49,520 nucleotides of DNA from an uncultured Alphaproteobacteria bacterium. GTDB lineage: Bacteria; Pseudomonadota; Alphaproteobacteria; HIMB59; GCA-002718135. The stretch spans positions 1 through 49,520 of the forward strand of contig CACGRD010000002.1 in NCBI GenBank assembly GCA_902575375.1, written 5' to 3'. Below the pieces are notes generated by a model. The model saw only the letters and a list, made by a program, of their open reading frames with translations. It was not told the DNA's origin and made no database searches. The position numbers and the translations under genes were made by a program. Positions 21,352-24,523 of the stretch are shown one piece after another (positions within the stretch are counted from its first letter, which is position 1; each line of letters starts with the position of its first letter).

Positions 21352-22782
21352 CTACACGTCGTAGTATAATTTGAACTCGTGTGGATGAGGTCTAATATTA
21401 ATGGGGTCAACCTCACTCTCTTTTTTATAGCTAATATAAGTTTCAATTACATCTTTGGTGAATACATCGCCCTCTAATAAAAATGCATGATCTTTTTCAA
21501 GAGCTTCAAGAGATTCAGCTAAAGATCCAGGTGTAGATTGAATTTTAGACAAAACTTCATCGCTAGCAGCATAGAGATTTATATCTGTTGGGTCACCAGG
21601 ATTAATTTTATTTTTAATTCCATCTAATCCCGCCATTAACATTGCTGAAAATGCTAGGTATGGATTTGCACTTGGATCAGGACATCTAAATTCCATTCTT
21701 TTTGACTTAGGACTTTGAGAATAAGCAGGAATTCTTACAGATGCAGTTCTATTTCTTTGAGAATAAACAATGTTTACTGGAGCCTCAAAGCCTGGTACCA
21801 ATCTTTTATAAGAGTTAGTAGTTGGAGCACAAAAAGCTAATAGAGCAGGTGCATGCTTAAGTATACCGCCAATATAATTTAAAGCTAAGTCACTTAAGTT
21901 AGCATAATTTCCTTCCTTGTACATCAGTGTATCACCATCTTTCCAAACACTTTGATGAACGTGCATACCTGATCCATTATCTTCAAATAAAGGTTTAGGC
22001 ATAAATGTAGCAGTCATTCCATGCTGTCTAGCAACATTTTTAACGACGTACTTATATTTCATCATATCATCAGCCATCTTTAAAAGTGGTGAAAATTCTA
22101 AATCAATTTCACACTGCCCACCTGTTGCAACTTCATGGTGGTGTGCTTCAACAGTAAGACCTATGTCTTGCATTGTCATTACCATTTCAGTTCTAACATC
22201 TTGCAGTGTATCAACTGGAGGTAATGGAAAATAACCTTCCTTATGTCTAGGTTTATGACCTAAGTTTGGATTTTCATCAGCACCACTATTCCAAGTGCCT
22301 TCGACAGAATCAACTTCATGAAATGCAAAGTTTGATCCAGAATCAAACTGAACATTATTGAAAACAAAAAATTCTGCCTCTGGTCCAAAAAATGCTGTAT
22401 CGCCAATACCAGATGATTTCAAATAAGCCTCAGCTTTTTTAGCAATATTTCTTGGGTCACGACTATAATCAACCAAAGTCACAGGATCCTTAATATTACA
22501 ATGTAATGCTAAAGTTTTTTCTGAAAAAAATGGATCAATGTATGCAGTCGTTGCATCTGGCAAAACAATCATATCACTGTCTTGAATTTCTTGGAAACCT
22601 CTTACAGAAGATCCATCAAAACCAAGTCCATCAGAAAATATATCTTCGTCTAAAAATTTAATTGGTATTGTAAAATGTTGAGTTGTTCCTGGTATATCAG
22701 TAAAGCGCATATCAACCATCTTAATGTCCATATCTTTAATTTCAGACATTAAATCTTTTGGAGTCGAGCTTTTTAATTTCAT
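21352..22782 (-). CDS. glnA: Glutamine synthetase type I
   Basis: 476 residues. It joins ammonia and glutamate to form glutamine, as a cytoplasmic dodecamer and the main entry of ammonium. Family blocks are intact: [42 protein letters not shown] and the ATP-site [27 protein letters not shown]. The adenylylation-loop tyrosine is kept as Tyr404 in NLYAASDE, so control by GlnE-type modification is possible. A good Shine-Dalgarno (AAGGAG, 22789-22794) precedes the ATG. The 5' leader holds two glutamine-riboswitch-like elements and the 3' end has a strong terminator. glnB lies just upstream on the same strand. Confidence 0.97.
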
Positions 22783-22788
22783 ATCTAT

Positions 22789-22834
22789 CTCCTTACTTCA
22801 ACAAAAGGGTATGCCATCCAGCGTTACCCAGTTA
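22789..22834 (-). promoter_or_regulatory. glnA leader: Shine-Dalgarno and adjacent hairpin, possible expression platform
   Basis: Between the second aptamer and the glnA start lies AAGGAG (complement of 22789-22794), 6 nt before the ATG. Just upstream is a short hairpin, GGGTA (22806-22810 on the plus strand) pairing with TACCC (22824-22828). No terminator-type T-run is seen in the leader, so if the aptamers control glnA it is more likely by access to the ribosome site than by premature termination. This is inference from position. Confidence 0.4.
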
Positions 22835-22867
22835 AATCATGCTCTAGTTATGAAATCTGCTTTTGAT

Positions 22868-22921
22868 GCGCGTTCCTTCAGCTTAAGCTTACTTCCGACC
22901 TATAACAATAGGTTGAACGAT
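22868..22921 (-). promoter_or_regulatory. glnA-type glutamine riboswitch, second (glnA-proximal) copy
   Basis: On the minus strand this element reads CGTTCAACC, then a stem ACCTAT/ATAGGT with loop TGTT, then CGGAAGTA, a short stem AGC/GCT with loop TTAA, then GAAGGAACGC. The outer stem CGTTC/GAACG closes it. This order and the conserved CGGAAGTA and GAAGGAACG segments are those of the glnA RNA motif, a glutamine-binding aptamer. It lies about 85 nt before glnA. Compared with the first copy, both internal stems differ in sequence but keep pairing. Confidence 0.85.
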
Positions 22922-22934
22922 TTATAACTTTTGC

Positions 22935-22985
22935 ATGCGTTCCTTCGGCACAATGCCTACTTCCGACTCTAAAAGAGTTGAACGA
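22935..22985 (-). promoter_or_regulatory. glnA-type glutamine riboswitch, first (promoter-proximal) copy
   Basis: The minus strand reads CGTTCAACTC, a stem ACTC/GAGT with loop TTTTA, then CGGAAGTAGGC, a stem GGC/GCC with loop ATTGT, then GAAGGAACGC. The outer stem is CGTTC/GAACG. It matches the glnA RNA motif at all conserved stretches and is about 14 nt upstream of a second copy. The motif is known to sense glutamine and to occur singly or in tandem ahead of nitrogen genes, mostly in cyanobacteria and marine environmental DNA. Confidence 0.88.
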
Positions 22986-22993
22986 TTAGAAGT

Positions 22994-23021
22994 TAATTAC
23001 TTGCTTTTGAATAAAAGTAAA
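22994..23021 (-). promoter_or_regulatory. Candidate sigma-70 promoter for the riboswitch-glnA transcript
   Basis: On the minus strand TTTACT (23021-23016) and TAATTA (22999-22994) are spaced 16 nt, a reasonable -35/-10 pair. Initiation about 7 nt downstream would fall right at the first aptamer. The background is AT-rich, so the match could be chance; transcription could instead continue from glnB. Confidence 0.35.
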
Positions 23022-23027
23022 GAAAAA

Positions 23028-23369
23028 TTAGACAGCATCACTGTCTTTTTCACCAGTTCTTATTCTTATTACTTGCTCTATATTGGATACGAAAATCTTA
23101 CCATCTCCAATTTTTCCAGAGTATGCACTAGATTTTATTGATTCTATAACTTCATCGACTTGATTATCTTCGACTATTACCTCTAATTTCATTTTGGCTA
23201 AAAATTCATCATCATAAGCATCATTAGTATCCATGCCTCCAGTCGATCCTCGTTGTCTTCCAAAACCCTTGACATCAATTAAAGTCATTCCAGATATTCC
23301 AATTTCATGGAGCGCTTCTTTTACTTGAGATAGTTTAAAGGGTTTAATAATTGCTTCTATTTTTTTCAT
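23028..23369 (-). CDS. glnB: Nitrogen regulatory protein PII with a divergent T-loop
   Basis: 113 residues. PII proteins are small trimers that bind ATP/ADP and 2-oxoglutarate and control nitrogen enzymes by contact through the T-loop. The body is canonical: MKKIEAIIKPFKL at the start, VKGFGRQ before the T-loop, and the ATP-binding TGKIGDGKIFV-type block (here SGKIGDGKIFVSN) and IRIRTGE at the end. The T-loop is not: where the family has G-H-T-E-L-Y-R-G-A-E-Y, this protein has GSTGGMDTNDAYDDEF (residues 41-56), one residue longer and acidic, so the usual uridylylation site around Tyr51 is lost or shifted to Tyr52. The gene follows the aminotransferase with a 4-nt overlap and precedes the riboswitches and glnA. 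Confidence 0.92.
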   Translation of the reverse strand: MKKIEAIIKPFKLSQVKEALHEIGISGMTLIDVKGFGRQRGSTGGMDTNDAYDDEFLAKMKLEVIVEDNQVDEVIESIKSSAYSGKIGDGKIFVSNIEQVIRIRTGEKDSDAV

Positions 23370-24523
23370 ATCGAAGATAATCTATTAATAGCTTCTTTAA
23401 TGTTTTCTAGAGAATTAGCAAAACTTATTCTAACAAATTCTCCGGCATTATCACCAAAGCTAGAGCCTGGAACTAAAGCAACACCTTTTTCTTGCAGTGC
23501 TACTTCTGAAAATTTATTTCCGCTTAATCCAGTTTTCGAAATATTGGGAAATGCATAAAAAGCTCCACCTGGTTCAAAACATGAAATTTTTTCTAATTTA
23601 TTCAATTCATTAAAAACGTACTCTTTTCTTTTTCGAAATTCACTAACAATTTTTGTTACTTCTTTCTGAGAACCTTTTATTGCCTCTATTCCTGCATATT
23701 GTGAAATTGAGGTAGCGCAGGAATTATAATTGACACATATTTTGTTGGCATGCTCAATTAAATCGTCTGGCCAAATGCTCCAACCTAATCTCCATCCAGT
23801 CATACAATATGTTTTGCTCCATCCCTCAAGAACAATTAATCTATCTCTTATACTTTCGTATTCTAATAATGACGGCATTTGTTCATTATTAAAAATAATA
23901 TTACTATAAATTTCATCACTTAAAATTGATACGTTGGGGTACTGCTCTAATAAATTAACAAGATCAGTAATTTTTTTCTTATTCATATAAGATCCTGTTG
24001 GATTGTTTGGATTATTTATTATTATCAAACTTGTTTTATCAGAAATTAATTCTTTTAATCGTTCAGTATTAATTTCAAAATTATCTCTTTCGTAAAGTTG
24101 CAAAGGTACAGCCTTTGCACCACTGTATTTAATCATGGATCTATAAATTGGAAAACCAGGATCGGGAAAAATTATTTCTCTGTCTTCATTTCCTAATAAT
24201 AATGTTGAAATGAAAATGACTGGCTTACCTCCTGGAGTTATTAAAACATTTTCTGGTTTAATATTTGTTTTGTATTTATTGAGTACTAATTCTGAAATTG
24301 CTTCTCGTAATTCAGGAATACCATTTGATGGAGTATATCCATGATAACCATCTTTGATTGCCTTAATAGCAGCTTCTTGAATATTGATTGGTGTAGGAAA
24401 ATCAGGTTGTCCAATTCCCAAATTGATAATATCTTTACCTTTGGCTGCTAGATCATTGGCTTTAGCAAGAATAGAGAATGCTGTTTCTGTTTCTAAATTA
24501 AATATTCTTTTTGAAACTTCCAT
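23366..24523 (-). CDS. Class I/II pyridoxal-phosphate aminotransferase (aspartate aminotransferase family)
   Basis: 385 residues, fold type I. It transfers amino groups between amino acids and 2-oxo acids in the cytoplasm. Visible marks are INLGIGQPDFPTP near residues 33-45, YTPSNGIPELR, NNPNNPTGSYM near 168-178, SDEIYSNI with the PLP-stacking region, and the PLP lysine in EGWSKTYCMTGWRLGW near 231-246, with the carboxylate-binding arginine in EFVRISFA near the C-terminus. It resembles AspC/AatA-like or alanine-type enzymes of alphaproteobacteria; the preferred substrate cannot be fixed. The stop overlaps the glnB start by 4 nt (ATGA), so it is co-translated with glnB and may belong to nitrogen distribution. 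Confidence 0.9.
   Translation of the reverse strand: MEVSKRIFNLETETAFSILAKANDLAAKGKDIINLGIGQPDFPTPINIQEAAIKAIKDGYHGYTPSNGIPELREAISELVLNKYKTNIKPENVLITPGGKPVIFISTLLLGNEDREIIFPDPGFPIYRSMIKYSGAKAVPLQLYERDNFEINTERLKELISDKTSLIIINNPNNPTGSYMNKKKITDLVNLLEQYPNVSILSDEIYSNIIFNNEQMPSLLEYESIRDRLIVLEGWSKTYCMTGWRLGWSIWPDDLIEHANKICVNYNSCATSISQYAGIEAIKGSQKEVTKIVSEFRKRKEYVFNELNKLEKISCFEPGGAFYAFPNISKTGLSGNKFSEVALQEKGVALVPGSSFGDNAGEFVRISFANSLENIKEAINRLSSI

Follow-up and report, generated by a model that had tools for sequence, protein, structure and literature searches.

The stretch of DNA under study (the window, 49,520 nucleotides in all) carries on its minus strand glnB, encoding a PII protein, and behind it glnA, the glutamine synthetase gene whose leader is described here. 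A cmscan of the whole window revealed two matches to the glutamine aptamer model RF01739, in tandem on the minus strand between the two genes (Table 1). Both cover model positions 1–53 and lie far above the curated cut-off of 35 bits. An earlier note on this DNA had proposed tandem glutamine riboswitches and a search with the glnA covariance model as a check; the scores of 64.3 and 65.7 bits confirm the proposal. The span it gave, 22868–22985, holds the aptamers but falls short of the whole unit, which reaches the glnA start codon at 22782. The Glutamine-II (Downstream-peptide) model RF01704 gave no match in the window at gathering score. The glnB gene starts within the stop codon of an upstream aminotransferase-like gene (ATGA overlap, 23366–23369), which suggests that translation of these two genes may be coupled.

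Table 1. Features of the glnB–glnA region and records of leaders with another platform. Positions without a record name refer to the window.
Feature	Position	Strand	Evidence or remarks
glnA, glutamine synthetase, presumed controlled gene	21352..22782	-	PF00120 (Gln-synt_C) E 5.1e-139; PF03951 (Gln-synt_N) E 3.6e-30
glnB, PII protein, upstream neighbour	23028..23369	-	PF00543 E 8.6e-34
Aptamer 1 (RF01739)	22934..22986	-	cmscan 64.3 bits, E 4.7e-12
P1 of aptamer 1	22984-22980 / 22942-22938	-	CGTTC / GAACG
Linker CATGCAAAAGTTATAAAT, P0 5' strand	22920..22937	-	CATGC 22937-22933, AGTTAT 22929-22924
Aptamer 2 (RF01739)	22867..22921	-	cmscan 65.7 bits, E 2e-12
P1 of aptamer 2	22919-22915 / 22875-22871	-	CGTTC / GAACG
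Tail behind aptamer 2	22838..22870	-	P0 3' strand: ATAACT 22851-22846 and GCATG 22842-22838
Start-complementary tail strand ATTTCATA	22856-22849	-	sequence complementarity
Hairpin H (GGGTA...TACCC), between tail and ribosome binding site	22807..22829	-	predicted
Translation initiation region	22776..22794	-	AAGGAG 22794-22789, ATG 22782-22780
TATGAAAT, complementary to tail	22783-22776	-	sequence
Small reading frames behind tandem aptamers	L084:1898-2053; L085, L048, L056, L093, L136		
Distant glutamine synthetase genes	L068, L072, L104, L112, L129, L132, L141, L148, L149		

For comparison we used a set of distinct loci fitting a two-aptamer pattern with a linker of 15–19 nt and sufficient flank (n = 119); the set does not include the gammaproteobacterial and viral types of tandem leader, whose linkers are shorter or longer. 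The inner stems named in the earlier note are present in the window: P2 is ACTC/GAGT and P3 GGC/GCC in aptamer 1, and ACCTAT/ATAGGT and AGC/GCT, respectively, in aptamer 2. Its claim that these stems covary is borne out by 118 distinct related leaders, in which 99.8% of the cells of this structure are paired. Two-sided changes were found in 13 of the 30 pairs, all within P2 and P3, and 410 compensatory cells were counted against a shuffled mean of 127 (as high in none of 500 shuffles). P1 is invariant throughout. The CGGAAGTA junction and the C directly behind P1 are also invariant columns in the 119 leaders; since the selection pattern demanded CGGAAGTA, the C alone counts as independently observed.

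The solved aptamer shows that, on binding of glutamine, G23 forms a linchpin pair with C60 (PMC11477058); according to the construct sequence (PMC5393176), C60 immediately follows P1. Counted by position, the equivalent of this linchpin base is C22937 in aptamer 1 and C22870 in aptamer 2. Score, stem covariation, the junction and the C behind P1 place both elements among the Glutamine-I riboswitches, and glutamine binding is predicted. Folding of the single strand from 22740 to 22990 was no better than that of shuffles (z −0.38) and is not taken as evidence.

Glutamine aptamers, including tandem ones, are already known; what is new are the multiple paired sites, the genus-wide presence of the switch set against the absence of GlnD and GlnE, and the linker–tail helix. 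The sequence and fold of the aptamer, with the C that follows P1, are shared with the cyanobacterial Glutamine-I riboswitch (RF01739, for example that of gifB). The cyanobacterial elements are located mainly before DUF4278/IF17 genes and are ON for gifB (PMC6316151), whereas those described here are paired, precede glnA, ammonium transporter (amt) genes and an ATP-grasp operon, and belong to an alphaproteobacterial genus without detectable GlnD. Glutamine-II has the same ligand and related conserved segments (PMC2864571). Tandem glnA RNAs as such, with two Gln-I aptamers in a row at nitrogen genes in marine DNA, have been reported by Weinberg 2010 (PMC2864571) and Sherlock 2022 (PMC9481103); in the excerpts available the former names cyanobacteria and marine DNA, the latter no host. 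A 2018 review describes glutamine riboswitches as restricted to cyanobacteria and leaves associations with glutamine synthetase, PII and ammonium transporters to unnamed uncultured strains (PMC6316151), and a 2022 paper reports a glutamine riboswitch in a methylophage (PMC9004378). Neither the linker–tail helix nor a connection with the loss of GlnD was found described in the literature searched, a body partly of excerpts and with most subscription papers outside its scope. The present data assign one set of glutamine synthetase, PII and ammonium transporter riboswitches to an alphaproteobacterial genus.

Complementarity of linker and tail

The linker between the two aptamers approximately follows the consensus CATGC-A(AA)-AGTTAT-(A/T)AAAT and is 18 nt long in the window. 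The sequence behind aptamer 2, ATTTC(C)-ATARCT-...-GCATG, is complementary to it. This complementarity, which would produce a helix (P0) enclosing aptamer 2, was found in 119 of 119 leaders, and CATGC or CGTGC in the linker together with GCATG in the tail likewise in all 119. There are 53 distinct linker/tail pairs; all of them form the five base pairs of P0a, and 49–53 form the six of P0b. The mean energy of the linker–tail duplex is −11.0 kcal/mol as compared with −4.1 kcal/mol for shuffled linkers, the own linker being better in 54 of 54. Pairing is preserved in the variants CGTGC with GCATG, GGTTA with TAACT, and AGTTTGAA with TTCATAACT. The strands are nearly invariant and covariation is slight: A-U is changed to G-U at one pair in three rows, and one further pair varies between U-G and U-A. 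RNAalifold, applied to the 119 leaders, omits P0 and pairs the identical P1 strands of both aptamers crosswise. What speaks for P0 is thus its complementarity in every leader, together with near-fixed spacing, more than covariation.

The crosswise pairing might itself be the switch. Without glutamine the identical P1 strands would then pair with each other, destroying both aptamers, and glutamine would restore them; the RNAalifold consensus as well as the window's unconstrained fold have this form. However, the invariance of P1 is demanded by the aptamer itself and thus gives no support to swapping, which also leaves the conserved linker–tail complementarity unexplained. We regard such a strand swap as highly improbable.

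The linker–tail complementarity points to a single expression platform shared by both aptamers. Judged by sequence, there is one gene start behind both, the arrangement expected of a one-platform tandem. The tandem glycine riboswitch likewise has two like aptamers and one downstream platform. It resembles the glnA leader in this respect (PMC9481103), while its ligand and fold are different and the linker–tail complementarity is a feature of the host system. Sherlock 2022 files glutamine tandems, 157 doublets and four triplets, as pseudo-cooperative with multiple expression platforms (PMC9481103), and this would favour two independent serial switches, each with a platform of its own. In the host, however, the linker itself would be a platform strand: its 18 nt contain no terminator, ribosome site or gene start codon that could give aptamer 1 an output of its own, and it is complementary to the tail in every one of the 119 leaders. 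Independent switches are in our view improbable. The earlier note had described two aptamers in series acting as two sensors, which could give a steeper or two-step response; the series stands, but the complementarity indicates a shared platform. Coupling of two aptamers to a single output through linker and tail would be a novel arrangement.

Proposed start-codon pairing and sign of regulation

A second complementarity, absent from the earlier note, connects the tail with the glnA start region, where the tail strand ATTTCATA matches TATGAAAT across the start codon. For 16 distinct pairs at glnA the tail–start duplex has a mean z of −2.07, with 5.3% of dinucleotide shuffles as strong; the window's own duplex has −10.2 kcal/mol (z −1.24, 11.5% of shuffles as strong). 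The values for the other site classes (see below) are −1.18 at amtB and −0.65 at amtA (both weak) and 0.08 at ATP-grasp sites (absent). In cross-class tests with at most the first 15 leaders per class, amt starts paired worse with glnA tails (−8.4, −7.4) than with amt tails (−10.0 to −11.7), and with ATP-grasp tails (−10.5, −10.6) as well as with amt tails. The glnA starts slightly favoured their own tails (−11.8 versus −10.3 to −11.1), and ATP-grasp starts had no clear preference. Pairing with the start region is thus moderately indicated and claimed for glnA, plausible for the amt genes and unsupported for the ATP-grasp sites. The tail strand concerned overlaps the P0 strand, so that both pairings are mutually exclusive in a pseudoknot-free fold; in the window ensemble their probabilities are 0.57 for tail–start pairing and 0.43 for P0.

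We lean towards a tandem class-I glutamine riboswitch which controls glnA translation through one shared platform and is OFF with glutamine. At low glutamine, P0 would form as the RNA is made and occupy the tail; the start codon would be left open and glutamine synthetase produced. At high glutamine both aptamers would bind their ligand, and C22937, the base behind P1 of aptamer 1 and the first of P0, would be drawn into the linchpin pair with the junction G. This would weaken P0, and the freed tail would cover the start codon and stop synthesis. In the host lineage, such a switch would stand in for the missing glutamine-sensing cascade of GlnD and GlnE.

In the fold model P0 is a minor form in glnA leaders even when unbound (mean 0.16 by partition functions for 35 glnA leaders; near 0 in four of the seven glnA leaders among 20 hand-chosen ones), and the mechanism therefore needs P0 to form first, during transcription. 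These partition functions cover 116 leaders; of the full set of 119, two lacking a class and an ATP-grasp leader with no recognised start were dropped. With both aptamers forced to fold, and the linchpin C and the junction unavailable, P0 was lower in 92 of the 116 leaders and higher in eight. The modelled openness of the start region fell in 48, rose in 25 and was about unchanged in 43. At glnA it fell in one of 35 leaders and rose in seven, one of the 35 (L015) having a misplaced start in the tallies over the 116 leaders as well as in the cross-class tests and the all-class hairpin values. The partition functions agree on no sign of regulation.

Under the opposite sign, glutamine-bound aptamers would stabilise P0, keep the tail off the start codon and switch glnA ON. 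Folding the aptamers without the linchpin term increases mean P0 from 0.82 to 0.98 at amtA, from 0.47 to 0.83 at amtB and from 0.68 to 0.82 at ATP-grasp sites, which would favour an ON switch, and the cyanobacterial Gln-I switch on gifB is ON (PMC6316151). However, aptamer folding lowers mean P0 at glnA from 0.16 to 0.06, P0 begins with the linchpin C, and physiologically an ON switch would mean that glutamine raises glutamine synthetase and ammonium uptake. We consider ON regulation unlikely, though it deserves some weight. The OFF sign is what we infer from linchpin modelling and physiology, with both of which it fits; folding energies do not settle the sign.

In each of the four site classes a hairpin whose sequence varies is predicted between tail and start; compared with mononucleotide shuffles its mean z is about −2 to −3. 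The mean z is −1.99 for 19 distinct versions at glnA and about −0.8 to −1.0 for hairpin H of the window. Hairpin H might be an intrinsic terminator (22829–22807) that is released or formed by glutamine, as GGGTA/TACCC is followed by TTTTGTT and in a related glnA leader (L105) a U-rich run comes after a hairpin of 11 pairs. Yet only four U follow H in the window, then GTTGAA, which is paired in the fold with TTTAAC before the hairpin. There is no U run behind H in amtA leaders and several glnA leaders inspected, and a scan of 22700–23400 reported no leader terminator. The stable hairpin plus U run of intrinsic-terminator riboswitches is thus missing from the leader, and transcription attenuation appears very improbable. 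As the earlier note had supposed, translational control is more likely than termination. A terminator-like hairpin at 23046–23030 was discarded, as its stem belongs to the coding sequence at the 3' end of glnB and some relatives have an interrupted U run there.

Distribution of the switch and of GlnD

The host assembly (1.09 Mb, 66% complete) contains six RF01739 matches forming three tandem pairs, which precede glnA, an ammonium transporter gene and an operon encoding a circularly permuted ATP-grasp protein. According to Pfam the operon (L036:3164-6588) comprises circularly permuted ATP-grasp, Alpha-E and transglutaminase-like proteins, and its position under a tandem glutamine switch connects it with nitrogen metabolism. 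Between switch and ATP-grasp gene there is a short reading frame. In relatives a further amt gene, two kilobases away from the first, has a fourth site, and a 96% complete genome has eight matches in four pairs. The plan of two aptamers with linker and tail is kept before glnA, the two amt genes and the ATP-grasp operon. A renewed search of 20 genus genomes gave matches in 19, with a total of 104 (51 pairs and two singles). Both singles (L305, L306) precede a third, distant amt gene, 30–31% identical to the second, which in these two genus genomes is located beside a glutamine-synthetase-like gene.

Altogether the switch was found in 60 of 61 genomes of the host genus, and the earlier note was right in assigning it to an alphaproteobacterium. 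The one genus genome without an RF01739 match (G014, 82% complete) has no GlnD match either. None of 40 genomes of the sister family contained the switch in a first search in which at most 50 candidates per genome were scored under stricter filters, and again none of 40 with laxer filters and all or nearly all candidates scored. Even samples of class and phylum, for which the best 14 candidates per genome were scored under stricter filters and negatives are accordingly softer, gave six of 385 and one of 398 genomes. The six belong to the host genus (two) and to one other family (four, whose ATP-grasp gene likewise carries the switch, as a single aptamer); the one is the window's own genome. 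Named genomes, scanned for the tandem pattern, yielded at least 119 stretches. Among the 80 matches listed, 59 are titled ‘uncultured Alphaproteobacteria’, the rest including SAR86, SAR116, other proteobacteria and a few odd titles. Many of these records stem from marine single cells, as their SAG names indicate, and the host genus may belong to the AEGEAN-169/HIMB59 order. RF01739 was confirmed in 15 of the 18 records tested. Pattern matches in Paenibacillus (L080), Roseovarius (L119) and L057 were rejected, having no RF01739 match at gathering score.

In proteobacteria, the uridylyltransferase GlnD senses glutamine. GlnD was found in none of 61 genomes of the host genus and in 35 of 40 of the sister family, counted from a listing that gives every match but not every genome without one; GlnE was found in none of 12 and in nine of 10, respectively. 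Incompleteness (the genomes are mostly 55–92% complete) is a poor explanation of the missing GlnD. The NtrC model does not separate genus and sister family, 22 of 22 genomes giving a match with E ≤ 0.001 and none exceeding the cut-off. Twelve pattern-scan genomes, for which completeness is not given, comprise six with aptamers on a different glutamine synthetase gene, all without a GlnD match, and six with aptamers on a small reading frame, all with one. Of two SAR116-labelled genomes, L092 has GlnD and in L044 none was found; nor was it found in two further genomes (L055, L062) whose leaders are close relatives of the amt and glnA leaders of the genus. GlnD is present in three of the four alphaproteobacteria with a single aptamer, one of the matches exceeding the cut-off. 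Each of these contrasts may rest on one or a few evolutionary events.

The presence of the switch in a genus where GlnD was not found suggests that RNA may have taken over glutamine sensing, and replacement of GlnD by the riboswitch is a strong lead, not proof. More broadly, an RNA would have replaced a protein glutamine sensor: with the GlnD/GlnE cascade gone, the genus would read up to four nitrogen uptake and assimilation genes or operons, each through a switch of two aptamers and one platform, the linker acting as antisequestrator, and a second bacterial group, in which these aptamers precede a different kind of glutamine synthetase gene, is also without GlnD. We see this proposal as evenly poised. 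It would offer a reason for the switch in the genus and makes it testable how streamlined ocean bacteria sense nitrogen status.

Tandem aptamers with other platforms

In proteobacterial and viral leaders with linkers of 8–11 nt, a hairpin containing the ribosome site starts with the base that follows P1 of aptamer 2. This hairpin is predicted in all 10 proteobacterial leaders folded; the viral ones were read by eye. The arms of this hairpin vary together (CATCT/AGATG, CACCT/AGGGTG, CAATCT/AGATTG). As the hairpin starts at the linchpin base, the same reasoning implies that glutamine would open it, and the short-linker leaders would be ON switches. Behind the tandem aptamers of proteobacterial records we found 10 small reading frames of 35–54 codons (for examples see Table 1). 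The one scanned, that of L084, gave no Pfam match. They might be analogues of the cyanobacterial glutamine synthetase inactivating factors.

The tandem pattern also occurs in 89 stretches of viral contigs, 80 of them listed (L216–L295). Linkers measure 8–11 nt in 77 of 78 viral pairs, and the P0 linker and tail are present in none of the 78. The viral leaders inspected mostly have the ribosome-site hairpin from the base behind P1, then a reading frame.

Nine glutamine synthetase genes, whose products are 24–27% identical to GlnA of the window, lie behind tandem aptamers with yet another platform (Table 1). From their sequence features we take them to be of type II; that of L129 has a Pfam Gln-synt match. 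In L068 the platform consists of CTTCTATAG against CTATAGGAG at the ribosome site. Record titles name Gammaproteobacteria or SAR86 for four of the nine loci. Three aptamers in a row precede a gene for a predicted exported protein in L107 (3102-3277), L052 and L061, and in L107 and L052 this gene is followed by an ammonium transporter gene.
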